This document shows positions 180 through 22,324 of a DNA stretch of 24,595 nt, in pieces (the first letter of the stretch is position 1; the number at the start of each line of letters is the position of its first letter). This stretch comes from a virus. A program made the position numbers and the translations under genes. Under the pieces are notes generated by a model that saw only the letters and a program-made list of their open reading frames with translations, had not been told where the DNA came from and made no database searches. The stretch lies in IMG/VR virus record IMGVR_UViG_3300033981_000513, positions 1 through 24,595 of that record, one strand, 5' to 3'.

Positions 180-422
180 ATGACCGACCTAGTAAACCAC
201 CCACCGCATTACAAGCAAGGCGACATTGAATGCATCCAGGCCATTAAGGCTGCACTTGGCACCGAAGGTTTTAAGGCTTACTGCAAGGGCCAAGTGTTTA
301 AGTACCTATGGCGTGCTGAGCACAAGGGCAATGCCGTAGAAGATCTTGGCAAAGCCGATTGGTACATGCGCCGGCTGCTGCTCGAGGCGGCCGAGTGGCT
401 TGAGCAGGAGGCCAGGAAATGA
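180..422 (+). CDS. DUF3310 family protein (phage nucleotide kinase-like)
   Basis: An 80-residue protein carrying the whole DUF3310 signature: VNHPPHYKQG at residues 5-14, then IECIQAIKAALG, the F-K-A-Y-C-K-G-Q segment, the KYLWRAEHKG core and a closing DLGKADWYMRRLL helix. DUF3310 proteins are common in phages and are often annotated as nucleotide kinases by relation to the T7 gp1.7 family. The biochemical role in this lineage is not established. The family motif begins at residue 5, so ATG 180 is the only sensible start, although no Shine-Dalgarno is present: a terminator T-tract ends 4 nt upstream. It overlaps the next gene by 4 nt (ATGA), which suggests translational coupling. Confidence 0.85.
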   Translation: MTDLVNHPPHYKQGDIECIQAIKAALGTEGFKAYCKGQVFKYLWRAEHKGNAVEDLGKADWYMRRLLLEAAEWLEQEARK

Positions 423-754
423 CTCATCCTATTACCCCACCGACTGAGCTGATGCAGGCGTGGGTGGCCGAAATCTGGCATGAAGGAACACCAGTTCGAG
501 TTGCATTGAGCGACGAACACATCGCCGCTCGCGCCGCCCAATGGGGCGCCGACCAAGAGCTAGAAGCTTGCTGTGAGTGGTTTGCCAGTAGGGGCTACAC
601 CGTACCCCTACGTGCATCCCGCCGCCCCAAGCCACCGAGCTTGAAGGAACAGGCTCAAGTAGAGCTTGACCGCTTGATTGCTCTTATTCCCACGGAGGGA
701 GCGATAGCAATGGCCGAACCCATCCGCCGCGCACTGGAGGCGCTACCTGAATGA
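419..754 (+). CDS. Small phage protein of unknown function
   Basis: A 111-residue soluble protein. Residues 30-60 hold an ARAAQWGADQELEACCEWF segment with adjacent cysteines. A proline-rich linker (RRPKPPSLKEQAQ) follows, then a helical C-terminal tail. The arrangement resembles other small phage proteins with an N-terminal W/C-rich helix and a Lys/Pro linker, but I cannot assign a function. The start sits in a 4-nt ATGA overlap with the DUF3310 stop, and GGAGG in the upstream gene's last codons serves as its ribosome binding site. The stop overlaps the next start by 4 nt in the same way. Confidence 0.75.
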   Translation: MTHPITPPTELMQAWVAEIWHEGTPVRVALSDEHIAARAAQWGADQELEACCEWFASRGYTVPLRASRRPKPPSLKEQAQVELDRLIALIPTEGAIAMAEPIRRALEALPE

Positions 755-963
755 CTTACATGTCAGGCCACAGCCAAGAAATACGAGGGCTGCTTGATGC
801 TTTCGGCATTTCGCACAAAGCCGTTATAGGACTTCGCTTGCTTGTTGAACCCGACCAACTCGTTCGAGTTCAAGTAGAGCGGCTAGTTACTACCGACGAG
901 ATGGGTGAGATAACAGAGTGGATTCTCAAGCACGGCATCAAAGCGGAGCAGCTCGATGACTGA
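751..963 (+). CDS. Small phage protein of unknown function
   Basis: A 70-residue protein of mixed alpha/beta character, with a VIGLRLLVEPDQLVRVQVERL stretch of alternating hydrophobics followed by a charged C-terminus ending in LDD. No family is recognised. The 4-nt ATGA overlap with the upstream gene and a GGAGG about 12 nt upstream, inside that gene's ALEAL codons, support the 751 start. A second ATG nine bases later (MSGHS) is possible. The C-terminal GAC-TGA codons form the ATGACTGA overlap with the next gene. Confidence 0.65.
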   Translation: MTYMSGHSQEIRGLLDAFGISHKAVIGLRLLVEPDQLVRVQVERLVTTDEMGEITEWILKHGIKAEQLDD

Positions 964-1213
964 CCTCTCCCCCGCCGCGCGCACCATTGTGCAAGCGTTT
1001 GATGAGCGACATGAGTTGCTCGGTCCTCTTGAGGGCAACTGGCAGGAGGCCTGCCTCGCCGCCGCCCTCCGTGCCGCTGCGGATCAAGTGGTGCCGGAGC
1101 CTAATGACATCGACAAAGGATCCTTTTCACTTGCCGCCATTCGCAATCGTTGCAAGGTGCGCGATCAGCTTCTCGTTATCGCCGCCGAGCTGGAGGGTAA
1201 GTGCAATGGCTGA
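956..1213 (+). CDS. Small SPAA/ELEG protein, copy 1 (unknown function)
   Basis: An 85-residue, mostly helical protein. It begins MTDLSPAAR and ends with LLVIAAELEGKCNG. It is paralogous to the product of 2475-2675: both share T-D/E-LSPAA at the N-terminus, an ALRAA helix in the middle and IAAELEG at the C-terminus. At the DNA level 21 bases are identical over the ELEG region. The function is unknown. The start lies in an 8-nt overlap (ATGACTGA) with the preceding gene, and the GGAGGG inside its own ELEG codons is placed to serve as ribosome binding site for the next gene at 1206. Confidence 0.75.
   Translation: MTDLSPAARTIVQAFDERHELLGPLEGNWQEACLAAALRAAADQVVPEPNDIDKGSFSLAAIRNRCKVRDQLLVIAAELEGKCNG
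1178..1198 (+). repeat. Direct repeat copy A (IAAELEG codons with built-in RBS)
   Basis: Twenty-one bases are identical to 2643-2663. They encode IAAELEG in two paralogous proteins and contain GGAGGG, which lies 9 nt upstream of the next start codon at 1206. Confidence 0.8.
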
Positions 1214-1457
1214 TTTCACCATCCATGAAGGCAGTCCGTTTGTTCACTTTGATGGAACGGTATGGCCCATTCCTGGTAGCCGACTGCGTGACTTGGAGCA
1301 CGCGCTCAGGTACACACGAAAGGATTACTGCTTTGGCATGGAAGACCGTCTTCTTGCCGCTTCCGTCATAAATGCTTACATCGAGCTTGTCTGGAAAACA
1401 CAGAAGCATCGCAATCAGATTGCTACCAACCTATTTGCTGCCGCTCAAAATGACTGA
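1206..1457 (+). CDS. Small phage protein of unknown function
   Basis: An 83-residue protein. Its N-terminal half is beta-rich with HFDGTVWPIPGSRLRDLEHAL, then a cysteine-containing helix and a C-terminal KTQKHRNQIATNLF helix. No family is recognised. A longer reading in this frame back to 987 would run antiparallel in phase through the preceding gene. ATG 1206 is preferred because it makes the usual 8-nt overlap (ATGGCTGA) and sits 9 nt after a clear GGAGGG. Its stop overlaps the next gene by 8 nt. Confidence 0.7.
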   Translation: MADFTIHEGSPFVHFDGTVWPIPGSRLRDLEHALRYTRKDYCFGMEDRLLAASVINAYIELVWKTQKHRNQIATNLFAAAQND

Positions 1458-1767
1458 CCACCTAACCCAACGCGCTCAGCGCTTGATTGAAGAGTTTGAA
1501 TACGGCCAGGACACGCGCCATGGCATCGCTAATGTACTTACTCTTTTGGCTGACGCTTGGGAGAGCTACAGCGATGACACCACCCTTGTAGGTGTTCGGT
1601 GTTCAACCTTAGAAGACATGGCCGTTGAGCTTACCGCTCCAACACTGATGGAACGCGCCTTAGCTGGCGATAAGGATGCTGCCAGGCAGTTTCTTTTTGA
1701 AGCTGGTTTTACTGACGAACACGGCCAACCCACTGGACCCTACAAATCGGAGAATCTCGATGCGTAA
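1450..1767 (+). CDS. Small phage protein of unknown function
   Basis: A 105-residue acidic protein. An N-terminal helical region (residues 1-50) is followed by a C-terminal motif running LMERALAGDKDAARQFL then EAGFTDEHGQPTGPY. That last segment looks like a conserved phage module, but I cannot name it. The open frame extends upstream to 1372. The 1450 ATG is preferred because it forms the recurring ATGACTGA overlap with the preceding stop and gives the MTD N-terminus seen in several neighbours. Confidence 0.7.
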   Translation: MTDHLTQRAQRLIEEFEYGQDTRHGIANVLTLLADAWESYSDDTTLVGVRCSTLEDMAVELTAPTLMERALAGDKDAARQFLFEAGFTDEHGQPTGPYKSENLDA

Positions 1768-2032
1768 AACAACTGTTCACGACTTTGAAGCTATCGAATT
1801 GTTTGCTGCAATGATCGGCAAACCTGAACCTGAGACCGATGAGGAGACTGAAGCGCTTAAGCAGAAATGCATCAACGACTTCGGTGTTGACTTCTACGGG
1901 TTAGCCGAGATTGCTGAGCGCTTGCTGCCACTTTGCGAACACGCGAATGCAGCGATAAGCGGTGCTGCTGCGCGTGGTTTTGCAAAAGATGGGATGTTTA
2001 TCTGCAAAGTTTATGACGAGGATTTGAACTAA
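1760..2032 (+). CDS. Small phage protein of unknown function
   Basis: A 90-residue acidic protein. After a short N-terminus (MRKTTVHDFEAIELFAAM) come a Pro/Glu-rich linker, a conserved-looking DFYGLAEIAERLLPLCEH helix and an AAISGAAARG turn. No family is recognised. The start at 1760 overlaps the previous stop by 8 nt (ATGCGTAA) and follows a GGAG about 7 nt upstream. The longer open frame to 1676 would lie wholly inside the preceding gene. Its TAA shares one base with the next ATG. Confidence 0.7.
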   Translation: MRKTTVHDFEAIELFAAMIGKPEPETDEETEALKQKCINDFGVDFYGLAEIAERLLPLCEHANAAISGAAARGFAKDGMFICKVYDEDLN

Positions 2033-2475
2033 TGACTGACTTTCGTGCGCTGTGCGCTGAGCTTGCTGACTGTTTAGAAAAAGCTAATTGGCCATTGCGG
2101 CATAAAACTCTCTTCGAGATCTGCCTTGATACCGCTCGCGCTTCCCTGGCCCAGCCCGAGCCGCAGGGGCCGAGTGATGCGGAGATGCAAGACCTAGCAC
2201 TTCACTGCGTTAAAGGAAACAAGTCGGTTGAATGGGTAATCCAAGAAGCCCTCGTCCGCTGGGGCCGCCCCGCCATCGAGCCGGTGCCCGTCGCTGAGCG
2301 CCTGCCGGGGCCGGAGGATTGCGATGATCAGGGAAGATGCTGGATGTGCGGAAAGGTTGATGGAGATTGGAGGTTGATCAGTATCGACAATCCTGGAGTG
2401 CCCCAGCTCAAGTACGCCTTCTCCCACTGGCTCCCCCACTGGGCGCTGCCGGTGCCGCAGGAGGAGGGTGAGTGA
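2032..2475 (+). CDS. DUF551-like phage protein with modular N-terminus
   Basis: A 147-residue two-part protein. Residues 1-75 are helical (FRALCAELADCLEKANWP, then an Ala/Pro/Glu-rich linker and an SDAEMQDLALHC helix). Residues 90-143 match the DUF551 pattern: PVAERLPGPED, a C-W-M-C segment, a lone W near DWRL, and the closing SHWLPHWALPVP. DUF551 is a short Trp-rich phage/prophage domain of unknown function, often fused to variable N-terminal parts as here. It overlaps both neighbours by a single base (TAATG and TGATG junctions). Confidence 0.75.
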   Translation: MTDFRALCAELADCLEKANWPLRHKTLFEICLDTARASLAQPEPQGPSDAEMQDLALHCVKGNKSVEWVIQEALVRWGRPAIEPVPVAERLPGPEDCDDQGRCWMCGKVDGDWRLISIDNPGVPQLKYAFSHWLPHWALPVPQEEGE

Positions 2476-2675
2476 TGACTGAGCTATCTCCCGCTGCACA
2501 GGCGGTGTTGAATGGGTTTCGCGCTGTGCCAACTCTTATGGATGGGCCATCTATTGCCGGTGCCCTTCGCGCTGCTGTTGCTTGCACCCAGCAAAACCAC
2601 GGCCATGACGTGTGGGAGTGCGATGCAGATGAACTCATCGCCATCGCCGCCGAGCTGGAGGGTGCCAATGACTGA
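2475..2675 (+). CDS. Small SPAA/ELEG protein, copy 2 (unknown function)
   Basis: A 66-residue protein, MTELSPAAQAVLNGF at the N-terminus and LIAIAAELEGAND at the C-terminus. It is a paralogue of the 956-1213 product with a shorter middle. The open frame could begin at GTG 2472, but ATG 2475 in the TGATG junction gives the N-terminus that matches the paralogue. The GGAGGG in its ELEG codons lies 6 nt before the next ATG at 2668. Function unknown. Confidence 0.75.
   Translation: MTELSPAAQAVLNGFRAVPTLMDGPSIAGALRAAVACTQQNHGHDVWECDADELIAIAAELEGAND
2643..2663 (+). repeat. Direct repeat copy B (IAAELEG codons with built-in RBS)
   Basis: Second copy of the 21-base repeat at 1178-1198. Again it encodes IAAELEG and provides GGAGGG for the downstream start. 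Confidence 0.8.
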
Positions 2676-2823
2676 CCGCGAACTGATCGACAGACTGTTG
2701 TTCTTAGCTCAGACTGCAGTAGACCAGGCGCTGGACCGGAACTATGACGACCCTGAGGATTATTTCATCTACCGCGAGATGCAAGAGCTGAAGACTGCTG
2801 TCACCAAGCTGGAGGGGCAATGA
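2668..2823 (+). CDS. Small acidic phage protein of unknown function
   Basis: A 51-residue, highly charged, helical protein (MTDRELIDRLLFLAQTAV at the start, a DDPEDYFIY centre and a KLEGQ end). The open frame continues upstream to 2512 inside the preceding gene. ATG 2668 is chosen because it forms the ATGACTGA 8-nt overlap and follows a GGAGGG. GGAGGGG in its own last codons is the ribosome binding site for the following membrane peptide. Confidence 0.65.
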   Translation: MTDRELIDRLLFLAQTAVDQALDRNYDDPEDYFIYREMQELKTAVTKLEGQ

Positions 2824-2909
2824 CGCTGCCCCTGATGTTCGAGCTTCTGGTCGTCTACGTCGTGACGTGCTGCCTGGCGCTATGGCTGGCGTCGAAGCTG
2901 CTGCCATGA
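2820..2909 (+). CDS. 29-residue single-pass membrane peptide
   Basis: A 29-codon frame, ATG 2820 to TGA 2907-2909. The product is almost entirely hydrophobic (MFELLVVYVVTCCLALWLA) with a terminal KLLP, so it is a predicted single transmembrane segment. It overlaps both neighbours by 4 nt (ATGA) and has a strong GGAGGGG 5 nt upstream, which is why I regard it as real despite its size. It could be a small membrane effector or a lysis/exclusion accessory. Nothing in the sequence decides between these. Confidence 0.6.
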   Translation: MTLPLMFELLVVYVVTCCLALWLASKLLP

Positions 2910-3139
2910 ACATTGGCGAGCAGCGGTGCCCTAAATGCAATGGCCGGATGCGGCTGGTATTGCAAGAGCGCACCTACAACAACCGCGCCAAGCGCAGGCG
3001 ACATGAGTGCTACGACTGCCAAGAGCGCAGCACTAGCTACCTTGTAAACGATGACTTTTTTCAGCAGCTAACGGCTGCGCATGATATCGTTCAACGGTTG
3101 CAGGGGTTTTACTTTGACCACTGCGACGCCACTAATTAG
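2906..3139 (+). CDS. Small zinc-ribbon protein
   Basis: A 77-residue protein with two CxxC knuckles (CPKC at residues 8-11 and CYDC about 27 residues later) separated by a basic NNRAKRRRHE segment, followed by a helical tail. This four-cysteine layout with a basic linker is typical of nucleic-acid-binding zinc ribbons such as those in Ogr/NrdR-type small regulators. Specific membership is not claimed. The frame is open back to 2867, but ATG 2906 overlaps the upstream stop by 4 nt and starts just before the first knuckle. A role in transcription control next to the sigma gene is plausible but inferred. Confidence 0.7.
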   Translation: MNIGEQRCPKCNGRMRLVLQERTYNNRAKRRRHECYDCQERSTSYLVNDDFFQQLTAAHDIVQRLQGFYFDHCDATN

Positions 3140-3249: not shown

Positions 3250-4137
3250 ATGACGCCCGACTCGTTCAAGCAGTACCTCACCGCCATCGGCCGATATCCA
3301 TTGCTGTCGGCTGAGCAGGAAATTCAACTGTCGCGTCAAGTGCGGCGATACCTTGAGCTGCGTGACGCCAAAGGCGAACGCACCAAGCAAGAACAACGCG
3401 AGATCCGCGTTGGCATTCGCGCGCGTGACATGATCATCAATTGCAACTTGCGCTTGGTGGTTCATATCTCCAAGCGGTACGTCACCCGGCTGCAGTCCAA
3501 CAACATGGATCTAATGGACTTGATCCAAGAAGGAGCACTGGGCCTGCATCGTGCCGCGGAGATGTTTGACGGCACTAAAGGGTATAAGTTTTCTACTTAT
3601 GCCTACTGGTGGATTCGCCAAGCCATTACCCGCGCCATTGATACCAAAGAGCGGTTGATTCGAGTGCCGCAACACGCGCTAGAGAAAACTTACGCTGCTG
3701 CCAAAACCCAACGTGAGTTTGCGCAAGCCAATGGCCGCACGCCTACTGTCCGCGAAGTGGCCGACATCCTCAACATCAAAACAGATGAGCTATTGATGCT
3801 GATGGAGCGCAATAGGCCACACCGAAGCCTAGATGCACTGATCACCGAAGATGGTAGCACAATACTGGACATGATTGCCGACGAGTACGGCATTGATGAA
3901 GACCACAACCCTGAAGAGATTTGTGAGCGCGTTGAGCAGCTGCAGCTGGCTTTTTTTCGCCTAGATCCCTTTGATAGGGATGTTGTGCGTAGAAACTATG
4001 GCATTGGCTGTGAAACACCAGAAAGTTATGCCGAAATTGGCCGCAATCTTGGTGTATGCAGAGAGCGCGTCAGACAGCGTGCGCAACGTGCGCAACGCAA
4101 GCTAAGGCTGATTCTGCAGCCATCACTGGTGGCGTAG
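3250..4137 (+). CDS. Phage-encoded sigma-70 family factor (group 2-like)
   Basis: A 295-residue RNA polymerase sigma factor. Region 1.2 is at 4-34 (DSFKQYLTAIGRYPLLSAEQ). Region 2 is at about 55-130, with NLRLVVHISKRY, DLMDLIQEGALGL and the -10 recognition and melting helix KGYKFSTYAYWWIRQAITRAI. Region 3 is at about 135-200, and region 4 at about 225-290 with a -35 helix-turn-helix EIGRNLGVCRERVRQRAQ. Region 1.1 is absent, as in group 2 factors. Unusual points are the Cys in region 4.2 where SRERVRQ is normal, RAQRAQRKLR instead of IE-type residues after ERVRQ, and an HRSLDALITEDGS region 3.2. It probably redirects host RNA polymerase to phage promoters. It is the last gene of the plus-strand block. 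Confidence 0.93.
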   Translation: MTPDSFKQYLTAIGRYPLLSAEQEIQLSRQVRRYLELRDAKGERTKQEQREIRVGIRARDMIINCNLRLVVHISKRYVTRLQSNNMDLMDLIQEGALGLHRAAEMFDGTKGYKFSTYAYWWIRQAITRAIDTKERLIRVPQHALEKTYAAAKTQREFAQANGRTPTVREVADILNIKTDELLMLMERNRPHRSLDALITEDGSTILDMIADEYGIDEDHNPEEICERVEQLQLAFFRLDPFDRDVVRRNYGIGCETPESYAEIGRNLGVCRERVRQRAQRAQRKLRLILQPSLVA

Positions 4138-4362
4138 CAGTCGCTGCCACCATCGCTTTGGTTTGGAGCAGCTTAAAAACTGCTCCATTTCTAGTTTGGC
4201 AATATGACCAGTTGCCTGCTGGATTAGCTTAGATTGATACGCATTTTGACGAATCAGCGACGCGCATAAATGTGCCACTTGGCTAGGGTCATCATGGGCA
4301 AGGGCAGCTCTTGCCTGCCCTTCTATCCGTAGTTGATCCTCTACTGATAGTTCCACAATCAT
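4123..4362 (-). CDS. Small helical protein of unknown function
   Basis: A 79-residue protein, MIVELSVEDQLRIEGQAR at the N-terminus, LCASLIRQNAYQSKLIQQA in the middle and a basic, Trp-containing C-terminus (KRWWQRLLRHQ). The central part is a long amphipathic helix likely to form a coiled coil. The family is not identified. An in-frame ATG at 4380 would add six residues (MSWGQW). I prefer 4362 because it has a GGGG 7 nt upstream. The gene ends 15 nt inside the 3' end of the sigma factor on the other strand. It would be the last gene of the late operon, 154 nt beyond the dCTP deaminase stop. Confidence 0.65.
   Translation of the reverse strand: MIVELSVEDQLRIEGQARAALAHDDPSQVAHLCASLIRQNAYQSKLIQQATGHIAKLEMEQFLSCSKPKRWWQRLLRHQ
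4164..4187 (+). terminator. Hairpin after the sigma gene (possible weak terminator)
   Basis: An 8-bp perfect inverted repeat (TGGAGCAG, loop CTTAAAAA, CTGCTCCA), 26 nt beyond the sigma stop. It is followed on the plus strand only by TTTCTAG, a poor T-tract. It lies inside the opposite-strand gene's codons. It could weakly end or pause the sigma transcript. Equally it could be chance within coding sequence. Confidence 0.35.
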
Positions 4363-4378
4363 CCACTGGCCCCAAGAC

Positions 4379-4543
4379 ATGACTAACAACAACCTGCTAC
4401 CGCCAACACTAGAGCAGGTTGGCGATATATGGCGCGTCACTTATGCAGGAATGGTAAAGGAGCACAAGCAAGACTGGCAGGCGCAGTGGCACTATCAGCA
4501 AGCTTGTGACATGTACTTATCCGCGCGAGGCAGTGACGATTGA
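4379..4543 (+). CDS. 54-residue protein of unknown function
   Basis: A frame from ATG 4379 to TGA 4541-4543, MTNNNLLPPTLEQVGDIWRV at the N-terminus with a Trp/Gln-rich middle (QDWQAQWHYQQACDMY). It reads like a genuine helical protein, with no low-complexity or stop-depleted artefact look, but no family is recognised. It lies on the strand opposite its flanks: its start abuts the start of the minus-strand gene 4123-4362 (they share CATG if that gene begins at 4380), and its last 27 nt overlap the 3' end of the dCTP deaminase. It has no obvious ribosome binding site. It could be expressed by read-through from the sigma gene. Confidence 0.5.
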   Translation: MTNNNLLPPTLEQVGDIWRVTYAGMVKEHKQDWQAQWHYQQACDMYLSARGSDD

Positions 4544-5032
4544 ATCGTTGTTATACCGTCCGGTTACTGCATAGGTGCGCTCTGGCGTGCCAGCGATGGC
4601 ATGAAACACCATCTGGCCAATCTTCATGCCGGGCCACAATGCAATGTTGTGATAACGACGGCTGTTGTGTAGTTCTAATGTGAGCCGACTGCCGTGCCAG
4701 CCTGGGTCACAGTATCCAGCAAGCAGGTGCTCTAGGCCAGACCTTGCGCGGCTGGACTTCAGTACAAACTGCGCGGCAATGTGATCTGGCAGGTTAAAAA
4801 ACTCCTGCGTCTCAGCTAGCGCAAACTCACTAGGCGCCAGCCAGTAAGGATCCGCCTCTGTATGGTGCGCAATGCTTAGCAATTGCAGGTCTGCAGTGTG
4901 CTCCACTTCCACCATTAGGTTGTCGCCGAGCAGCACATCAAGGGATGATGGGTTCTGCAGTTCTGCGTTATACGGCACCACCATTGCATGTTGCTTGCAC
5001 AGGCGGCAAATCTCGTGGTCAGGAATGATCAT
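4517..5032 (-). CDS. dcd: dCTP deaminase (dUTPase superfamily)
   Basis: A 171-residue enzyme of the Dcd/Dut fold that converts dCTP to dUTP (or to dUMP, if bifunctional), feeding dTTP synthesis. Signature segments are present: SSLDVLLG at 29-36, the YWLAPSEFALAETQE strand, KSSRARSGL at 92-100 (Ser and Arg matching E. coli S111 and R115), AGYCDPGW at 105-112, and LTLELHN with the catalytic Glu120. The C-terminal GRYNND lid follows. ATG 5032 forms a TGATG junction with the endolysin stop. A TTG one codon earlier is possible but less likely. Monofunctional and bifunctional enzymes cannot be told apart by eye. It is located at the end of the late operon rather than among replication genes. Confidence 0.9.
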   Translation of the reverse strand: MIIPDHEICRLCKQHAMVVPYNAELQNPSSLDVLLGDNLMVEVEHTADLQLLSIAHHTEADPYWLAPSEFALAETQEFFNLPDHIAAQFVLKSSRARSGLEHLLAGYCDPGWHGSRLTLELHNSRRYHNIALWPGMKIGQMVFHAIAGTPERTYAVTGRYNNDSIVTASRG

Positions 5033-6081
5033 CAATAATCCCAGCGGACTTTAGGGCGGCCAGCGCGAATGCCAAGATGCACAAAGCCCTTGGGTGCGCC
5101 GTAGCCAAGACTATACGGCCATTCCTTGTCGCACCATGCCTGCAGCTTATTGATGTCAACGCCTTGGATGTAAAAGTCCACGGCGCCCACGTTAGGCGCG
5201 TTGTACAGGTGCTCTGAGCTACTGGCGCCACCTACTGATCGGTTGATTGCCGCTGGCCGATAGCCGCTGGTGATGATCACAGGCTTGCCACCAAATGCAG
5301 ACCGTGCCCGCTCCATGAATGCAGCAAGCTCGGCCGCTGTGTTCACTTGATGCTGCGCATCAAAGCGCCGCGCCTCTTGGTTCAATGCGAATTCACCTAG
5401 CGTGATGTGTGGCGTGATGCGCGATGCAAACGAACTAGATGGCGTCAACTTGGCCGGTTGCTGTTGATGCTCAAGATTGCCAGTAAATAACCGCACCTCA
5501 GCGGCACGGCGCCTCGCCAGCCCTTCTAGCGTTTTGCCGTCAGCTTTATCCCACTTGGGCAATTCCTCTGGCACAACTACGCTGGGCGCCTCGCCAGCCG
5601 CCAGCCGCTTGCGCAACGTGGACTCCTCTACGGCACCAAGTCCTACATTGAAAGCCCAAGACACCAGCGCAGCTTGCTGATTGGGTTTCCATGCCTTCAT
5701 CAAAGGCAGTAGGCCAAATAGGCCAGGGGCGAATAGGTTTTCGACTTGATCGCAAAGCAGCTCCTCGGCCATCTGCTGCGTGATCTTGTCGCCCATGCGC
5801 ACTGGTGCATCAATCAACCGCGTGGAGCCATAGCCGATGGTTGGCACGCCAGCTGGGCATCGGTATGCCTCAAGCCGCAAGCCTTCAAATTCGCGGATGA
5901 CCTTGAGCGCTGGCTCAAGCCATGGCGCTGCAGGCATTACCGGTGCAGCACGGAACATTTCTAGGAATTCCGCCTGCTGCCCAAGGGTGAGCCATTGCCA
6001 TGCCGTATTCCACGCCGCAATTTGATGTGGCTGTGGCGCCTGCTTATCGGTCCACTTGGCGGCAGCGAGGAAGTTGCTCAT
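5032..6081 (-). CDS. Bifunctional endolysin: GH24 lysozyme plus M15 peptidase
   Basis: A 349-residue two-domain lysis enzyme. Residues 55-200 form a phage-type GH24 lysozyme with the E-8aa-C-5aa-T triad: Glu66 in FEGLRLEAY, Cys75, and Thr81 in TIGYG. The Cys variant is the one known from P1/phage 21-type lysozymes. Residues about 222-349 are an M15 D,D-/L,D-peptidase domain with ITSGYRP, NRSVGGA and zinc ligands His291 (SSEH), Asp302 (AVDF) and His335 (FVHLG). The two domains are joined by a Gln/Ser-rich linker (about 204-219). Together they would cut both glycan strands and peptide stems of peptidoglycan. There is no signal peptide or SAR anchor, so it needs a holin, which is probably encoded just upstream (6250-6516). 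Confidence 0.93.
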   Translation of the reverse strand: MSNFLAAAKWTDKQAPQPHQIAAWNTAWQWLTLGQQAEFLEMFRAAPVMPAAPWLEPALKVIREFEGLRLEAYRCPAGVPTIGYGSTRLIDAPVRMGDKITQQMAEELLCDQVENLFAPGLFGLLPLMKAWKPNQQAALVSWAFNVGLGAVEESTLRKRLAAGEAPSVVVPEELPKWDKADGKTLEGLARRRAAEVRLFTGNLEHQQQPAKLTPSSSFASRITPHITLGEFALNQEARRFDAQHQVNTAAELAAFMERARSAFGGKPVIITSGYRPAAINRSVGGASSSEHLYNAPNVGAVDFYIQGVDINKLQAWCDKEWPYSLGYGAPKGFVHLGIRAGRPKVRWDY

Positions 6082-11607: not shown

Positions 11608-14600
11608 TTAGCTTCCTCGGGCTTGCCAGCTGAAGGCGCCGCTCACACGGTTGCCCGCAGTGTCGAACAGCAGCACCTTGAAGCTGGTGGGATTGGCGAC
11701 GTCCACAAAATCATAGATCGCGATTCTGGGCGTCGTTCCGCTTGGTGTGACACCAATGCTTTCAATGTCCACAAACGGCACATTGAAGTTGACCGTCGTT
11801 CCACCAGTATCCGCAGAGTTTGCCGTGCCATTGCCCATGTCGTTCTTGATCTTGATGTCGAGGCGGACGTTCAGTCCACTGAGCTGCAGCAGGTCATCGC
11901 CGCCTGTGCTGGTGAAGTCGTAACGGACCTTCACGTAGCGGAAGTTGGTGGCATAGATGGACTCTTGGTTTGCGTAGTCGGTCCAAGGGTCGCCAGATGC
12001 GGTTTTTACGCTGAGCGTTGGGGTTACCGTCACAGAACCGGCCACCGTCTGACGCGTGAGCGTTGAGGTGATTTTCGTGCCAGCCAGCACGGTGCTGTAG
12101 TCGAACTCCTCGACGTAGCTGCCGGTGGTGGTAGACGGCATGGCGTAGATGGTGAAGCCAGCGCTCACTTGGTCCTGCAGTGTGCTCCAGCCGCGGGAGG
12201 TGAAGTGCGACTGCCAAGTTTCTGTCGTATCTACCGTTGCCAGCAGGCCCGTGCCATTGGGCGTCAGGTTGGTGGAGGTGCCGCTAAAGGTGCTGTTGAT
12301 GTCCGAGCGCAGGATGTAATCCGGAGGCTGGTTAACGAGGGCGGAGACGCTGGCCGGGGTGCCAACGTTGCCTGCACTGTCAATGCCCGCCAGCCAGTAG
12401 GTGTAGGTGCCAGAGACGGTCTCAAATACCGTGGTGAACAGCCCCTGCTTGGTGCCGACCGAGGTGCCGCTTGCGTAGGTGGTGCCGCGGCGCAGTTCGT
12501 AATAGACGATGGGCAGCGTTTGCGTGGAGTCGGTCCAGCGCAGCAACACGTTGTTGTCAATCACTTGCTGGCTGATCACAGGTGCCGATGGCGACGTGAC
12601 CACCACGTCTTGGAATTGCTCGGGGCCCTGGTTGCCAATAACGTCAACTGCCGCTACCCAGAATCGCTGCGTGCCGGTCCAATCAACCTTCAGGCTGTAG
12701 GCAGTGGATTTGATTTCAGCCAATGTGGTAGCTGATGCAAAGGTGCTGCCCCTGAGCACTTTGTAGTAGGCCGTTTCAAGGCTGCCCTGCACGGGATCCC
12801 AGCTCAACAGGACCTGTTCACCCCTGAAAGCGTTTTGCACATTAGGAGCTGGCGGCACCGTGGGGCCGATAGCAACAGTTGCAGCAGCGCCAAGATTGTT
12901 GTTTGCGTCAACAGCTTGGACAGTGAATGTCTGCGAACCTGTCCAGTCAATACGCGTGGTGTAGTTTGTAGATTGCAAAATTGCAACAGTTGCGTCGTTG
13001 CGTGCAATTCGGTAAAAGCGCGTTTTTGTCGTACCGTTTACTTCGCTCCAAGTCAGTACGGCGTTTTGGCCTGTGTAAGAAACCGAGACAGTTGGCGCGG
13101 CGGCTTGGGTGATTGTGACTGCTGCTGAACCTTCGGCACTCTCGTTGCCGGCCAAGTCCACCGCTTTCACGTAGAAAGTCCGCACGCCGTTCCAGATGAT
13201 CGGTAGCGAGGTGGTGGTGGTCTTGATTTCGCCAATGGCACCGGCGCTGGACCGGACCACATAGGCGGCAATGGCATAGCTGGCGGTGGATGCTGGCCAA
13301 CTGAGTGTCACCAAGTCGCCGGCCACTGTGGCGGTGACGCTCGGTGTTGAGGGTGAAGTGATGGTGACGGTGGTGCTGGCAGCTGCGGCGCTGTAGACAC
13401 CTGAGGTGTCGATGGCGCGGATCATGTAGCTGCGCGTACCGGGAGCCAGCTGGCCGAGTTTGTAGCTGGTGGCAGCCACGTTGGTGACGAAGGTGGCGGA
13501 CGCCCAGACTGTGCCCTGCCTGATTTCGTATTCGCTGAGGTCTAAGTCGGGGACGGGGTTCCAGATCAGGGTGGCACCGATGTTGCCATCGAGGATCGAT
13601 GAGAAGCCGGTCACGTTGGACGGCGGGGCTGTCTTGCCAAGCGCCGTGATGCTGCCGGTGGCTGCTGTGGTGGACAACTTTAGGGCGGCGCTCATGGAGA
13701 ACACCTGCACCTCAAACAACCCAGGCGTGATGTCGAGGATTTCGTAGTCGTTGGTCAGCACATCGACCACAGCCCAGTTGGCGCTGTCTTTGCGCCATTT
13801 CACCCGGTACTGGGCAATGCCAAGTACCGCCGGCCAAGAAACAATTACCTTGGCGCGGATCTGGTTTTGGTAGCTGTAGAGCGCCTCCTCAAACGAGAGG
13901 CTGGCTGGTGCATCGGGTATCTCGTTGAGATCGGTTATGTCGCGAACCTCAAGCGGCCGGCCTCGCTCCACGTAGGCGTACTTGCTCGAGTTGTAGGCGA
14001 GGGCCGATATCTGGTAGGTGGCCTGATCTTGTTCAGCAACGCTGATCACGCGCCAGGTCGAGGTCTGGATTGAAGCGGTTTCAAGGATCCAGATGCTGTT
14101 GGCATTGGGTGCCGTGGGTAGTGCGGATGTCAGGTTGATGACCTTGCCGGCGATACTGGCGACGCTGCGGGCGGCCACCGTGCCATCCGGCAGAATGACC
14201 GACAGCGTGGCGCCGCTTGATGTCAGGCCGGTTGCGTCATCGACGGTGATTGCCGTGGTAGTTGCGGAGGCGATGCGGCCACCGCGGCGGGCACCAGCTC
14301 GCACGGGGTCGCTAACCTCGATGATCTGGCCAGGCCGCACCATCACGCCGGCGTCAATGCTGGCGGAGAAGCTGATTACCTCGCCTTCGTATTGCTCGGA
14401 GTAGAGGAGCCACTCCCCAATTCGACCGGCTTGCCCACGACTGGTGCAGGCAAAGGCGCTGATCTCGGTGGTGATGGCGCCGTATTTGCTGATCGAGGTT
14501 TGATCCTCGACGACCTCGTAGGCAACGTCCCGCAGCTCTAGGTCAAGGTAACTGACCACGGCTACATTTGGCCGTGTCTTTAGACTGCTGCCCGAATAGC

Positions 14601-15831
14601 TGAAGCCTTCCTCGGAGACGTTTGCCAGCGTGAACAGATAGGCGGAGTCAGCGGGGCGGTCTTGGCTAATGGTTAGCGCACCAGTGCTCCAGTAGGGCAT
14701 GGCCCGGAACACCGAACACATGTCATTGATCAACTTGTAGGCGTCTTCCTGCGTTTGGATGTTGATGTTGCAGGAGAAACGGGGCTCTTGACCGCCGAAG
14801 CCGTCAGGTACCAATTCAGCGCAATACTGGCTGGCGGAGTAGAAAGCAAACTTGTCCAGCTGGGCGGCGCTGATGTGCTGGCCGAATCCGTAGCGGGAGG
14901 TGAGCAGATCCCACAGGATCCAGGCGGGGTCGCTGCACCATTGCGCGGCGTTAAAGCTGCCATTCCATATGCCTGCATAGATCAGGCGGCCGGTGACTGA
15001 ATCGACGGTGGCGTTATTGGGAATGCGGACCTTGATGCCACGCACCAAGTAGGTGCGCGAAGGGATGGAGTTGAACTGCTCAGCGTCGATGCGTACTGCT
15101 ACTAATGCGCTGTTGGGATAGCGCAGCTTTGCATAGGTAAGTTCTGTGTAACTCGACCAACTGAATGCGTTTGTGATTTTTGCGGATTCACCGCCTGGTG
15201 CGTCTTGCTCTGAGTTGTCGTCGGTGACGCGAGTCACCTTGATATTGACAGGTTTGGATCCCGTCAGGGTGATTAGGTAGTCGCGCTGGTATAGATCGGC
15301 TGTCCGGCCTCTAATTACGTCATCAACAACAACGGTATAACCACCGCTTGAGTATTGCGTGGAGATCTGAAATCTGAAAACACTGCCAACAATGTCACCC
15401 TGATCTGTGATTCGCTGCAGGGCAGGAATGTTGATGGTGACGCGGACGGCATCGACTGCGGTGTCTGTGATACTGCGAACGACTGGCGTTGCCTGGAGAA
15501 CTGTTACGCCAACGGCAACTTCGTTCTCAACAGCGTCAACGGTTGGGATGTAATCCTGGTTCTGGGTTCCGTTGCGTGTCCAGACTGTTACGTTGTTGAA
15601 GTTGTATGAGTTGTCTTGATTTTGTAGGGGAGTGTTATTGATGAAGATCGATTTGTGGCCGTCTTTGAGCCCTTGGATTTCGCCTTCGCTGATGAGGTCG
15701 ATGAGGTTGGCGTATTGCCTTGAGTTGAGCGTGTCGGCAGCTTCGGTGGGCGTATAGGTCTGCGGGCCACCGCCACTGCTGCGGCCTTTGCCGCCACCGC
15801 CACCGCCACCAGAACCGCCAATCCGTTTCAT
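11608..15831 (-). CDS. Tail tip / central fibre protein (lambda J family)
   Basis: A 1407-residue host-specificity protein. A Gly-rich leader (residues 3-23) precedes the J-type core, about 30-640, with NLIDLISEGEIQGL, SIFINNTPLQNQ, GGESAKITNAFSWSSYTEL, WILWDLLTSRYGFG and DMCSVFRAMPYWSTGALTIS. Residues about 645-1165 hold roughly six fibronectin III-like repeats (strands such as VTLSWPAS, AVLTWSEV and VLLSWDPV, and a recurring F-W/Y-V-x-A-V/I-D motif). The final 240 residues are a separate beta-rich domain, likely the receptor-contacting tip. It overlaps gpI by 4 nt and ends 3 nt before the fibre gene. The order I-J-fibre is as in lambda. Confidence 0.93.
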   Translation of the reverse strand: MKRIGGSGGGGGGGKGRSSGGGPQTYTPTEAADTLNSRQYANLIDLISEGEIQGLKDGHKSIFINNTPLQNQDNSYNFNNVTVWTRNGTQNQDYIPTVDAVENEVAVGVTVLQATPVVRSITDTAVDAVRVTINIPALQRITDQGDIVGSVFRFQISTQYSSGGYTVVVDDVIRGRTADLYQRDYLITLTGSKPVNIKVTRVTDDNSEQDAPGGESAKITNAFSWSSYTELTYAKLRYPNSALVAVRIDAEQFNSIPSRTYLVRGIKVRIPNNATVDSVTGRLIYAGIWNGSFNAAQWCSDPAWILWDLLTSRYGFGQHISAAQLDKFAFYSASQYCAELVPDGFGGQEPRFSCNINIQTQEDAYKLINDMCSVFRAMPYWSTGALTISQDRPADSAYLFTLANVSEEGFSYSGSSLKTRPNVAVVSYLDLELRDVAYEVVEDQTSISKYGAITTEISAFACTSRGQAGRIGEWLLYSEQYEGEVISFSASIDAGVMVRPGQIIEVSDPVRAGARRGGRIASATTTAITVDDATGLTSSGATLSVILPDGTVAARSVASIAGKVINLTSALPTAPNANSIWILETASIQTSTWRVISVAEQDQATYQISALAYNSSKYAYVERGRPLEVRDITDLNEIPDAPASLSFEEALYSYQNQIRAKVIVSWPAVLGIAQYRVKWRKDSANWAVVDVLTNDYEILDITPGLFEVQVFSMSAALKLSTTAATGSITALGKTAPPSNVTGFSSILDGNIGATLIWNPVPDLDLSEYEIRQGTVWASATFVTNVAATSYKLGQLAPGTRSYMIRAIDTSGVYSAAAASTTVTITSPSTPSVTATVAGDLVTLSWPASTASYAIAAYVVRSSAGAIGEIKTTTTSLPIIWNGVRTFYVKAVDLAGNESAEGSAAVTITQAAAPTVSVSYTGQNAVLTWSEVNGTTKTRFYRIARNDATVAILQSTNYTTRIDWTGSQTFTVQAVDANNNLGAAATVAIGPTVPPAPNVQNAFRGEQVLLSWDPVQGSLETAYYKVLRGSTFASATTLAEIKSTAYSLKVDWTGTQRFWVAAVDVIGNQGPEQFQDVVVTSPSAPVISQQVIDNNVLLRWTDSTQTLPIVYYELRRGTTYASGTSVGTKQGLFTTVFETVSGTYTYWLAGIDSAGNVGTPASVSALVNQPPDYILRSDINSTFSGTSTNLTPNGTGLLATVDTTETWQSHFTSRGWSTLQDQVSAGFTIYAMPSTTTGSYVEEFDYSTVLAGTKITSTLTRQTVAGSVTVTPTLSVKTASGDPWTDYANQESIYATNFRYVKVRYDFTSTGGDDLLQLSGLNVRLDIKIKNDMGNGTANSADTGGTTVNFNVPFVDIESIGVTPSGTTPRIAIYDFVDVANPTSFKVLLFDTAGNRVSGAFSWQARGS

Positions 15832-16424
15832 GCTGTTACCTGCTCAGTGTCGATGCCTGCTGAAATCACAATTGAGCCCACCAGTGTCTCGCCGTAAACG
15901 ATGGGCACTGGAGTGCCTTGACGGCTGGTGTTTTGTATTCCACTAAAGGAATAGCTTTTGCGGGGGTCCTTGGCGGTGTCAACCGTTGAAGGGGCGCTAA
16001 GTGTTGGGACAGGTGTGAGTAGCTGAGATACGCCGCCGAGAGCAAGAACGGCGCCTACGCCTTTTAAGGCCGTAAATAATCCGATATTTTTGGCGAATGC
16101 CGCTCCCAAGAAACCAGCACCGCTAGCGAAAGCCAGCGCTACCAACGCCACTCCGGCAATAATTCGCCCCGTAGCGCCAGCGCCGGTCACCACTGGCACG
16201 ATCTTGATTTCTTGGCTGCCGGCTGGATCGTGGATCTCGTCGAGTGACAGATCGTAGGTGCCGACGCTTACGCGGTAATGCTGTTCTGCCATGTGGCGTT
16301 CCAGCTGGGGGAAGTTGGTTACAAGGAAGCGCACAGCCTCGGCTGCGTTGGAGACTTCGGCTTCAAACTTGCGGCGCTTCAGGAACTTGGCCAAGCGCCC
16401 GTAGATGCGGATTGTGCGCAACAT
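15828..16424 (-). CDS. Tail assembly protein (lambda I family)
   Basis: A 198-residue protein. Residues 1-80 are a ubiquitin-like domain ([20 protein letters not shown], then AEAVRFLVTNFPQLERHM and EIKIVPVVTG). Residues about 82-135 are Gly/Ala-rich hydrophobic (IIAGVALVALAFASGAGFLG). The C-terminus (about 150-198) contains RQGTPVPIVYGETLVGSIVI, as in gpI homologues. It acts in tail-tip assembly with K and J. The open frame extends to 16478, but ATG 16424 makes a TGATG junction with the upstream gene. Confidence 0.9.
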   Translation of the reverse strand: MLRTIRIYGRLAKFLKRRKFEAEVSNAAEAVRFLVTNFPQLERHMAEQHYRVSVGTYDLSLDEIHDPAGSQEIKIVPVVTGAGATGRIIAGVALVALAFASGAGFLGAAFAKNIGLFTALKGVGAVLALGGVSQLLTPVPTLSAPSTVDTAKDPRKSYSFSGIQNTSRQGTPVPIVYGETLVGSIVISAGIDTEQVTA

Positions 16425-17143
16425 CACGTCAGCTCTAGCCTCCCTGCATCGTAATGGCGGAGACGGCGGCCAGTGCATTTCTGCAGCCAGCCGCCGTACA
16501 TGTCGCGACTACTGAGCCGGCCGCGAATGTGGTGCAGCACCAGCTGGTCGCCGATGTAAACGCCGACGTGATTGAGGCCGGAACCGCTGATGCTCATCAG
16601 TAGCGCATCGCCGGGCTGCAGCTCTTCCTCTTCGTCCAGCTCGCGGAAGCCGGCTTCTTTCCAGTAGCGATCAAACAGGGGATCTGCCTCAAATGCCTCT
16701 GGCGTCAGCGGGCGCTCCCAGTCGGGTAGTTGCAGGCCATGCTCGACGTACCAGTCACGGGCCAGCGTCCAGCAGTCGGTAATGCCCCATGCCCATTCGC
16801 GGCCGACTAGGGGTGCCTTGTAGCCGGATGGTTCGCAGCCGCCCCACACCTCGGTTTTGGGGTTGACGATATGCCACGGTAGGCCGCTGTTTTCGCAGGC
16901 CACCAGATCAGGGCCGCTGGGTTGTGGCGGGGTGACCGGATGGCTATGGACCACCGCGATGATTTCGCCGGCATCTTCGGCGGCTGCGTAGTCATCCGGG
17001 TTGAGGATGAACTGGTCTGCACCGGTGCAGAGGTTCTGGCACGGCCAGTAGCGTTCGCGGCCTTTGACCACCACCAGCAGCCCGCAGGCTTCGCGTGGAT
17101 CCTCGGCCTTGGCGTGATCAAGTGCTGCGGTACGCCAGGTCAT
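16424..17143 (-). CDS. Tail tip assembly protein, JAB plus NlpC/P60 (lambda K family)
   Basis: A 239-residue protein with two enzymatic folds. Residues 1-95 form a JAB/MPN metalloprotease-like domain with the full JAMM set: Glu18, His66-x-His68-Pro, and S76-x7-type SGPD79. Residues 115-230 are an NlpC/P60 peptidase domain with Cys124 (ITDCW), His192 (NHVGVYIG) and His204/205. The lambda K homologue has the same architecture and works in tail-tip assembly, possibly also in local cell-wall digestion during infection. All catalytic residues appear intact. The start overlaps the upstream gene by 4 nt. Confidence 0.93.
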
Positions 17144-17862
17144 GAGGAATATGTGCCCACGCCGGGGAATGAGCCAAAGGGCAACGGGGCTGTTGAGCCA
17201 AAGCGGATTTGACAGCTGCTCAATCGTTTGCCGCAGACATCTTCTGGCGCGGTGGCGACGCTTTGATCGTTTTCGTTGTAGTAGGAAGTGCCGGTGTAGC
17301 TACACTCTGCAGACCTGTAGGCCCACTGGCAAATGTTGCTGATGCACTGGCGTCGGGGTGCACGTACCCCGATCAGATCGAACGCCGCTGCGAGTTCAAA
17401 CTCCACCGCATCGCGGGTTTCGACTGACTTGCGGTCGATGTAGTAGACCTCGCGTGGAAACTCTGCTGTCGGGTCCGGGGTGCCGTAAGGGTTGACGCCA
17501 CCGGGGAAATTCACAGCGTCGATGTACCGGGCTAGGGTGCGGATCCGGGACACCTTGGCACCTTCCAGGCCCTTTGGCAAGGTCAGCAAGATTGCGGTGA
17601 TGGTGCCCATGATGTTGCTGCAGCGCAGGCGTGGACGAGGCAGGGAACCCTTGCCTTCATAAGCAAAACCGTCTGCCTCAATGGGAAAGCGGAGGTAGCT
17701 ATTGCCGGCCCATACCAGCTCACCGTTGGCGTTCAGGTTGGTGCCAGCGTGGAAGCGGTAAATGTCGGCTACGCCGTGTTGCGGGACGTTCAACTCCAGC
17801 ACGAATAGCTCGATAACGGCGCTGGGCGCGATTGCCTGAAGATCAGAAACGGGGACGGTCAC
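17140..17862 (-). CDS. Minor tail protein (lambda L family), Fe-S type
   Basis: A 240-residue tail-tip protein. The N-terminal beta domain has [11 protein letters not shown] and the RPRLRCSN strand. The central part contains [20 protein letters not shown] and [11 protein letters not shown], typical of gpL. The C-terminal domain has Cys173, Cys178, Cys187, Cys210 and Cys217, in [11 protein letters not shown]...SAEC...[15 protein letters not shown]. Lambda gpL binds a [4Fe-4S] cluster with such cysteines. It shares 4-nt overlaps with both neighbours. Confidence 0.92.
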
Positions 17863-18200
17863 GGCTCAAATACCTGCGTGAAGGTCGCGTCAATCTTGCT
17901 GCGATCAAAATCAAATAGCTCGCGCGTCCAGCTAGGGCAAATCCACTTGTAGCTGACGGCTTCACCTGGAGGGGTCCAAGTGAAAGAAGCGGCATCAGCA
18001 GCCCGAGCGTCTAGGAATGCTTCGATGACGTCGGCGTCATCGTCGGTGACGTTAAAAGACAGTCGCCATTCCTTGGGGTTTTGGTTGAGGCCGAAGGTGA
18101 TGCGTTGTTGGTAGCCGTCGCCAAATTGCGTAGTACGAATCTTTGGCTCGCTGCTTTTGGTGGCCGAATACGTCGGTTTGTAGTTGGGAAAGGTAGCCAT
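17859..18200 (-). CDS. Minor tail protein (lambda M family)
   Basis: A 113-residue protein with the compact M-family pattern: KSSEPKIRTTQFGDGYQQR at the N-terminus, PKEWRLSFNVTDDDADVIEAF in the middle, then FTWTPPGEAVSYKWICPSW and a final strand. The product is part of the tail tip under the tape measure. The start shares one base with the tape-measure stop, and the stop overlaps the L-like gene by 4 nt. Confidence 0.92.
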   Translation of the reverse strand: MATFPNYKPTYSATKSSEPKIRTTQFGDGYQQRITFGLNQNPKEWRLSFNVTDDDADVIEAFLDARAADAASFTWTPPGEAVSYKWICPSWTRELFDFDRSKIDATFTQVFEP

Positions 18201-20971: not shown

Positions 20972-20980
20972 AGCGCAACC

Positions 20981-21166
20981 CTACCGCCTTTGCTTCATTC
21001 TACGCTCCTGCTCCTCGTTTTGAAGCTCAAAGTAGCTGCTCCAAATCAGCAGCTCCTCTAGCGTCACCTCTTGATTGAGCCTGGCCAAGCTATAGCCAAG
21101 CTCCTTTGCAACGCCAAGCTGTAGCAGTAGCAGATTGTCTTTACTTAGCTCCTTCTTTAATGCTTT
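20981..21166 (-). CDS. Tail assembly chaperone T extension (reached by frameshift)
   Basis: This open frame lies just after the G stop. It reads KKELSKDNLLLLQLGVAKEL, then GYSLARLNQEVTLEELLIWS and SYFELQNEEQERRMKQRR, ending at TAG 20981-20983. The helical sequence with an L/I-WSSYFE motif is typical of the T part of tail-assembly chaperones. It has no usable start codon near its beginning (only an ATG six codons from its end). Its frame is +1 (equally -2) relative to G, and it is closed upstream by TGA at 21167-21169. It is therefore probably made only as a G-T fusion of about 171 residues. Confidence 0.75.
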   Translation of the reverse strand, partial: KALKKELSKDNLLLLQLGVAKELGYSLARLNQEVTLEELLIWSSYFELQNEEQERRMKQRR

Positions 21167-21497
21167 TCATGTCCAGCTGTTCTGCGTCCTCTGGGTTGGT
21201 GATGATCGCCAACATCATGCCTTGCAGGTCAGCATCTAGCACCTCTTCCTTGAGTTCGGCAATTTCGCCAGCTGCAAACAAGCGCTTGCCGGTGTCGTCC
21301 ACGGCCTTCGTAACTAGCAAGTTCAATGCAAAGCCATTGGTGTCATCGCCGCCAGGCATTTTTTGTGCGCGCTCACGCTCGGCCATCGTGAGTGGCGCAG
21401 CGTAAAACTCAAACACACTGCCATCTGTTAGCGTTACAACCCGCTTGGTTGGCGTCAGGTTGGCTGCTTTTTTGAGGCGTGCAAGCGCGGATCCCAT
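21141..21497 (-). CDS. Tail assembly chaperone G-like protein
   Basis: A 118-residue protein between the major tail protein and the tape measure, exactly where lambda G lies. It has an N-terminal strand region (RVVTLTDGSVFEFYAAPLTM), a charged middle (AERERAQKM) and a helical C-terminus (EDAEQLDMKSIKEGAK). Its product, alone and as a G-T fusion, would coat the tape measure during tail assembly and be absent from mature virions. ATG 21497 has no good Shine-Dalgarno. The 3' end contains the recoding window. Confidence 0.85.
   Translation of the reverse strand: MGSALARLKKAANLTPTKRVVTLTDGSVFEFYAAPLTMAERERAQKMPGGDDTNGFALNLLVTKAVDDTGKRLFAAGEIAELKEEVLDADLQGMMLAIITNPEDAEQLDMKSIKEGAK
21143..21166 (-). 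promoter_or_regulatory. G/T translational frameshift window
   Basis: The T frame is closed by TGA at 21167-21169 and the G frame by TAA at 21141-21143, so any shift must occur in the eight codons AAA-AGC-ATT-AAA-GAA-GGA-GCT-AAG. Two features stand out. AAAG permits tRNA-Lys to slip +1 from AAA to AAG. An AAGGAG sits 2 nt before the final AAG-TAA, an arrangement reminiscent of the RF2 (prfB) +1 site. No lambda-like GGGAAAG -1 heptamer is present in the window. Confidence 0.6.
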
Positions 21498-21565: not shown

Positions 21566-22324
21566 TCAGGCACTGGTGCTGAAGTCAAACGTCGGCACGC
21601 CAGCCGGACGGAAGGCGATCTCCACCTGCTGGGCATCGTCAGGGTTGACGTTCAGGCTGGCCGAGGTCAGCACTGCATCCATGGCGATACTGCGGCTCAG
21701 CGCCTCAGTCCCCTGCTTGTCGGTGTACAGCTTGAACGCGCAACCTACCTGCTGACGCTGCAGCACGTCTTCCACCATGCGGTTAGACAGTGCAGCGTCT
21801 TCGTTGGTCACGTAGACGGTAGCAGTGCCATTGCCGTCGGCAAAACCAGGGATGTAGGCACGGAAGGGTGCATACTGCCCAGCGGCTTGGCCGATAGTGG
21901 TCACGTCAATCTCAGCGCGGCTGATCTCAAAAGACCAAGACTGCACTTGCCCAACGGCAGCAAAATCGGCGTAGTACACCTCAAACTCGTTGGGCGCCAC
22001 TGCCGTGCCGTCGTCAGTGATGGCAAGGATGGTGCCACCAGCCGACGTGGAGACGGTCAGCGCACCAGTCGCAGCCGTGTAGGACAGCACGTAGTAGGTG
22101 GTGGCTGCATCAATGGGAGACGGCAGCGTACCAGTGCCGGATCCGCCAGTCTGGCTGTTGATGACGCGGAACTTGACCGGATCGCCAGCCTTGAAATTCA
22201 GGTACGGCTGAACGGTGATAACATCCGTGCTGGCATTAACTCCAGACTCGGGGAAGTTGCCGTTGGTGCCGGCGGGTTTGTAGTAGAGGGCGCCGGACGT
22301 ACCGGACAGAACAGTAACAGCCAT
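21566..22324 (-). CDS. Major tail (tube) protein (lambda V position)
   Basis: A 252-residue beta-rich protein in the V position between the U-like terminator and G. It has an N-terminal TVLSGTSGALYYKPAG region, an inserted Thr/Gly-rich domain (about 35-105), then a tube-like core with SWSFEISRAEIDVTTIGQ at about 129-146, QYAPFRAYIPGFADGNGTAT, and a C-terminal AVLTSASLNVNPDDAQQVEI. The ISRAEIDVTT and DAQQVEIAF elements fit siphophage tail-tube subunits. It polymerises into the tail tube around the tape measure. A terminator directly follows. Confidence 0.85.
   Translation of the reverse strand: MAVTVLSGTSGALYYKPAGTNGNFPESGVNASTDVITVQPYLNFKAGDPVKFRVINSQTGGSGTGTLPSPIDAATTYYVLSYTAATGALTVSTSAGGTILAITDDGTAVAPNEFEVYYADFAAVGQVQSWSFEISRAEIDVTTIGQAAGQYAPFRAYIPGFADGNGTATVYVTNEDAALSNRMVEDVLQRQQVGCAFKLYTDKQGTEALSRSIAMDAVLTSASLNVNPDDAQQVEIAFRPAGVPTFDFSTSA

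Follow-up and report, generated by a model that had tools for sequence, protein, structure and literature searches.

A phage-borne, group-2-like sigma factor at the meeting point of the early and late gene blocks of an uncultured siphophage

Sigma genes are carried by 65 of 153 sequenced cyanophages (PMC10452541), and those of cyanosiphophages have been annotated and discussed (PMC6157547, PMC3751600, PMC2784084), so that their presence in viruses related to the one described here is already known. The closest named factors are S-CBS1 gp27 (50% identical to the protein analysed here), KBS-S-2A CPKG_00011 (annotated 'RpoD'; 48%), S-CBS3 gp29 ('rpsD4, group 2'; 39%) and S-LBS1 A33 (34%), all with the same full sigma-70 layout. 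In S-CBS1 and KBS-S-2A, as here, the sigma gene closes the early block and runs head-on towards the late block's lysozyme end; the early/late plan of S-CBS3 and S-LBS1 is only roughly similar. S-CBS1, KBS-S-2A and S-LBS1 also share a small convergent ORF at the sigma 3′ end, whereas S-CBS3 has four small ORFs after sigma on the same strand. The cyanosiphovirus P-SS2 likewise carries a group-2 sigma (ORF 113), for which recognition of sigma-70 promoters has been predicted (PMC2784084), but this factor is only ~28% identical and belongs to a much larger genome with an additional group-3 sigma. In the open-licence literature, we found no published promoter study for the sigmas of small cyanosiphophages.

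Direct biochemical proof comes from phages 7-11 (gp47) and phiEco32 (gp36), whose early and late blocks also lie on opposite strands and whose sigmas, made before the late genes, drive late transcription from this plan (PMC8948821). The parallel with our locus is one of plan, with no close homology claimed: phiEco32 gp36 recognises a single element and, unlike the factor described here, lacks region 4, while the element read by the 7-11 factor is bipartite.

What is new here is the long-standing place of the sigma gene in the genome, a conserved convergent neighbour and a candidate promoter before the capsid gene. Together with the alignment of the sigma family, the latter two provide concrete DNA targets and a protein pair that bear on whether small cyanosiphophages switch to late genes with a sigma of their own.

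Genome context and domain layout of the sigma

The window, meaning the whole stretch of DNA analysed (24,595 nucleotides), is a complete IMG/VR record and a 24.6-kb fragment of an uncultured virus (Table 1). A near-identical contig of 45,032 bp (G001; L004) encodes an identical sigma and carries a 109-bp end repeat, which suggests a circularly permuted complete genome; this contig is probably the whole genome of the window virus. According to its annotation, the rightward block of G001 holds a PAPS-reductase-like gene, a helicase, exonuclease VIII, small ORFs and the sigma, and the leftward block holds a primase-helicase, a polymerase accessory protein, terminase, portal, head morphogenesis, scaffold, major capsid, tail and lysozyme genes.

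In the window, the sigma is the final plus-strand gene and faces the end of the minus-strand tail and lysis genes head-on, in keeping with the original prediction that it closes the early block of a lambda-type siphophage. Among relatives with at least 43% identity, the genes downstream of sigma lie mainly on the opposite strand in 52 of 60 cases, and in 48 of 56 the upstream genes mostly share its strand, although these counts depend on simple ORF picking and are approximate. Rfam gave no match in the window.

Table 1. Coordinates of the features discussed (window positions unless stated otherwise)
Feature	Position	Strand	Remarks
Early-block end, small ORFs	180-3139	+	ORF list, Pfam, PHROGs
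DUF3310 protein	180-422	+	early block
Zinc-ribbon ORF	2867-3139	+	early block
Sigma-70 family factor	3250-4137	+	exact ORF limits, 295 aa; regions 1.2 to 4.2, without region 1.1
Region 2.3-2.4 (-10 recognition)	3580-3642	+	codons 111-131; alignment with hosts
Region 4.2 recognition helix	4051-4107	+	GVCRERVRQRAQRAQRKLR, codons 268-286; core RERVRQ host-like
Convergent protein	4123-4380	-	~85 aa (MSWGQWMIVELSVEDQL...); first late-strand gene beyond sigma
Longer GTG-start reading of the convergent gene	4123-4440	-	ORF list
Late block	4517-24580	-	
dCTP deaminase	4517-5035	-	late block
Lysozyme-M15 endolysin	5032-6081	-	late block
gpJ-like tip protein	11608-15831	-	late block
NlpC/P60-JAB	16424-17143	-	late block
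Tail L	17140-17862	-	late block
Tape measure	18200-20971	-	late block
Major tail protein	21566-22324	-	late block
Head-tail adaptor	24017-24580	-	late block
Capsid-gene leader	L234:9926-10003		outside the window, ~1.5 kb past its right end; TARNNT, 7 nt, two hairpins

The protein matches all four Pfam sigma regions above their cut-offs: r1.2 (residues 4-36, 3.5e-11), r2 (63-134, 5.4e-18), r3 (145-217, 2.1e-12) and r4 (237-286, 1.3e-9, 37.9 bits). In PHROGs it matches phrog_351, RNA polymerase sigma factor (5.6e-74), and it aligns end to end with solved sigma factors. Region 1.1 is lacking, region 1.2 beginning at residue 4, and the best NCBIfam match is the cyanobacterial RpoD subfamily TIGR02997, with 261.3 bits against a curated cut-off of 384.5; the protein is thus related to that subfamily but not filed in it. 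Judged by its sequence, it is a sigma-70 family member with a group-2-like layout, which upholds the earlier description of a full, group 2-like sigma-70 spanning regions 1.2 to 4.2. Region 4 is present, so that the protein does not belong with factors of the T4 gp55 and phiEco32 gp36 type, in which region 4 is missing and promoters have only a -10 element.

Ancestry and promoter-reading surfaces

Nine other viral contigs encode near-copies of the sigma (92-100% identity), and many more encode relatives at 45-62%; the gene is intact in ten contigs. Host chromosomal sigmas are 40-43% identical to it, and one from a MAG contig (L149) reaches 44%. In a tree of 79 rows, built by a quick method with SH-aLRT support only, the window protein belongs to a starred set made up of 33 phage rows, within a 43-row phage-only group (support 92) that also takes in S-CBS1 and KBS-S-2A, while the host sigmas, both group 1 and group 2, branch separately. 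Two phage rows (L073 and L075) are exceptions and group with two MAG sequences; the S-LBS1 and S-CBS3 sigmas sit on very long branches, and their placement is unsure.

The original prediction had called the gene phage-borne and named a phylogeny as the check. With many phage relatives in the databases, and with the window protein placed among phage homologues outside the host branches, the alignments and tree indicate that the gene is truly phage-borne, and its ancestry is most simply explained by a phage lineage of long standing. Recent capture from a host is not supported, because the phage-only clade stands apart from host sigmas. A decayed or recently captured host gene with no role in the phage would share the group-2-like layout and the 40-43% identity to host factors, but the gene is intact in ten contigs, phage relatives are 50-62% identical against 43-44% at most for hosts, and the phage-only clade largely refutes this reading, whose chance we consider next to negligible. 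The string IRVGIRAR had been read as a trace of capture from a picocyanobacterial host. It is a generic run into region 2.1 that is absent as such from hosts, where the equivalents are, for example, IRMGKRARDRM and QVRMGCRARDRM, and it does not support such a capture; the tree also puts the hosts elsewhere.

In region 2.3-2.4 (GYKFSTYAYWWIRQAITRAI), every residue of 111-131 that is invariant in hosts is kept, including Q124 and T127, as expected from the predicted conservation of the region 2 helices; the roles of the -10 contact residues are those known for E. coli sigma70. The recognition helix of region 4.2 contains the string that had been quoted as deviant, yet its contact core (R271, E272, R273, V274, R275 and Q276) is identical to that of host group-2 factors (SRERVRQ). 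Four of these residues, R271, E272, R275 and Q276, correspond to R584, E585, R588 and Q589 of E. coli sigma70, which make -35 contacts there. The changes are C270 in place of S/T before the core and R277-A278 in place of I/L-E behind it; R277 is common in the phage family (14 of 22 phage core rows). Picocyanobacterial group-2 sigmas (the TIGR02997 family) thus share the same regions, the RERVRQ core and the -10 surface with the window protein, but they carry SRERVRQLEAKAI and occupy other clades of the tree.

Several relatives do have an altered core (TRSRVGQR, SRSAVGQR, SRETIKLR, SRECVRKN, TRETARQN and CRETVRKI). Over nine helix positions, the phage core set has a mean pairwise identity of 0.55 and the hosts one of 0.80, compared with 0.87 and 0.90 for region 2.3-2.4; this comparison is limited by a host set picked for similarity to the window protein. 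When all 9-residue windows were scanned for phage-host difference, the -35 helix ranked 21st of 287 and region 3.0/3.1 came first; the idea that the helix is the most relaxed site of the protein was therefore rejected. Thus, an altered region 4.2 fits some relatives by their sequences and not the window protein. The original proposal that this sigma reads a changed -35 element draws on the R-A pair behind the helix core, on the replacement of SRERVRQ in relatives and on the uneven identities of the two surfaces. It is quite improbable for the window protein, since the -35 contact residues are conserved and the helix ranks low in the scan; with -10 and -35 surfaces both close to those of the host, a host-like preference is expected.

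Two side observations concern the relatives. Region 3.0/3.1, the extended -10 reader (codons 135-147, window 3652-3690), is the stretch most relaxed in phages relative to hosts, with H142 changed to N in 10 of 26 rows and E145 to D in 9; the window protein keeps both. In the S-LBS1 factor (A33; L204:21999-22952), unlike in that of the window, the contact core of region 4.2 is gone (STRALESR), and this factor possibly no longer reads a -35 element.

Proposed role and candidate promoters

The gene is intact, with conserved functional surfaces, a phage-only ancestry and a conserved position. We consider it probable (about 0.6) that this group-2-like phage factor recruits host polymerase to promoters of the phage late in infection. 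A host-type promoter would first let host RNA polymerase read the rightward early block, whose last product is sigma. The sigma would then bind host core polymerase and direct it to promoters of the phage, most probably those of the head-on late block; it would act as an additional factor whose preference resembles the host's and which competes for core, and not as the bearer of a new -35 code. The early-block position and the convergence with the late block in most relatives fit control of the late operon, and from this synteny we infer that sigma may serve in place of an antiterminator. Against a late role, no sigma-specific motif was found upstream of the late block, the capsid promoter could be read by host sigma, and one contig (G040, 30.8 kb and maybe incomplete) has the capsid-leader element described below (L298) together with the convergent partner gene but no sigma match.

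Alternatively, the sigma might mainly retune host metabolism through host promoters while host sigma reads the late phage genes. Its host-like contact residues agree with this, and expression of the S-CBS3 sigma raised growth and acetyl-CoA in Synechococcus elongatus, whose growth and metabolism were changed by the S-CBS2 sigma as well (reviewed in PMC10452541), results that allow a role at host genes. Ma-LMM01, a cyanophage with no sigma, uses host-type promoters throughout (PMC5780444). However, the constant location of the sigma gene where early and late blocks meet, even among very divergent phages, and the changes that the -35 helix has repeatedly undergone in relatives suggest that phage promoters are the main targets, and we regard the metabolic explanation as unlikely.

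Under the favoured reading, in which sigma serves phage promoters, these would most likely lie in the late block. The best sigma70-type match in the leftward block of G001, G002 and G004 is TTGAAA/TTAAAA-N18-TATATT, directly before the major capsid gene. Its TTGAAA was rejected as a -35 element, because it is coded by the conserved RLKAAAxR of the scaffold protein. The -10-like part is more general: after leaders more than 85% alike were dropped, 33 of 88 collected capsid leaders remained, and TARNNT is present in all 33, against 8.6% of 841 gene ends in these genomes. In 26 of the 33, the stop codon of the scaffold gene and three further bases make up the hexamer; in the remaining seven (L261, L262, L276, L278, L288, L289 and L290) the stop is displaced and the hexamer lies a few bases before it, a reading weaker than the count because it was made by eye after the pattern had been seen. 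No fixed -35 accompanies TARNNT in the capsid leaders.

In most leaders a hairpin starts 7 nt behind TARNNT, where the transcript start would lie, and a second hairpin follows, the loop letters of the two agreeing in nearly every leader (CTGCG, TTGTG, TTACG or CTGTG). In L234 the hairpins are ACCGG-CTGCG-CTGGT and GGG-CTGCG-CCC, and the exact form GGG-YTRYG-CCC occurs once per genome. The stems hold in 93.5% of cells; compensatory change was rejected, as covariation did not exceed a shuffled control, and Rfam gave no match in the capsid leader. On this pattern, TARNNT is a candidate late promoter, with nothing tying it to the window sigma.

A more specific version holds that sigma and its targets drifted together: the capsid promoter would be only the -10 TARNNT overlapping the scaffold stop, with no fixed -35, the -35 helix would be free and the -10 surface fixed across relatives, and the convergent ~80-aa protein would be a dedicated sigma regulator. 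We consider this combination improbable.

Other searches covered the remaining starts of the two blocks. Upstream of the early block, the divergent region of G001, G002 and G003 shows by eye TTGACA/TTGCCA-N17-18-TACGGT/TAAGGT, host-type candidates for the early rightward promoter that sit between short inverted repeats. The first promoter of the late block lies outside the window. A shared promoter upstream of the late operon, for which the original prediction had proposed a motif search, did not emerge: between the primase-helicase gene and the late block, G001, G002 and G004 have no sigma motif in common. At ~31.7-32.0 kb of G002 (sigma on the plus strand; L105), GGCGGACGCAA repeats in both orientations surround an AT-rich stretch adjoining the primase-helicase gene, a cluster that looks like an iteron origin; at the same place, G001 and G004 have other, GGTTAGACGG-like repeats.

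TTCAAA-N16-TAGAAT before the tape-measure gene (window ~20997, minus strand) is conserved in four genomes, but it lies within a coding extension of the tail chaperone and was for that reason rejected as promoter evidence. At 20971-21200 (minus strand), between the chaperone ORF (21141-21497) and the tape measure, a second frame, LSKDNLLLLQLGVAKELGYSLARLNQEV..., runs beyond the stop in +1 (or -2) relative to the chaperone, a possible G/GT-type frameshift.

The convergent partner gene

The stop-codon end of the convergent gene overlaps the sigma 3′ end by 15 nt in the window. A homologue stands at the same place in most relatives, with overlaps of up to ~50 nt; among named phages, these include S-CBS1 gp26 (adjacent), KBS-S-2A CPKG_00010 and S-LBS1 A32. 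An alignment of 18 sequences has eight invariant columns. The protein has no Pfam or NCBIfam match, and its best PHROGs match is phrog_30071 (4.2e-5), a family of unknown function. Each of the six picocyanobacterial genomes that were searched has weak relatives, such as MSEPLALSLGQQFELERMSRAI... (per-genome E values down to 3.5e-4), which a profile comparison matches with the phage family at 94% probability. Structure prediction yields a helical hairpin (mean pLDDT 78) with no match in the PDB.

Identity with NblA was considered and rejected: a profile comparison gives 14% probability, there is no Pfam or PDB fold match, and the NblA model finds nothing in three of the four picocyanobacterial genomes scanned and does no better than chance in the remaining one. 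The protein is a possible regulator of sigma, and it could equally be the product of an unrelated late gene.

In several relatives (L016, L018, L019, L020, L022, L024, L025, L061, L069 and L078), an HNH-like endonuclease ORF (CAYC...LDHVKPRHKGG) lies ~200 nt past the sigma stop on the opposite strand; the small convergent gene was not seen in some of these, and in others the HNH-like ORF stands beside it.
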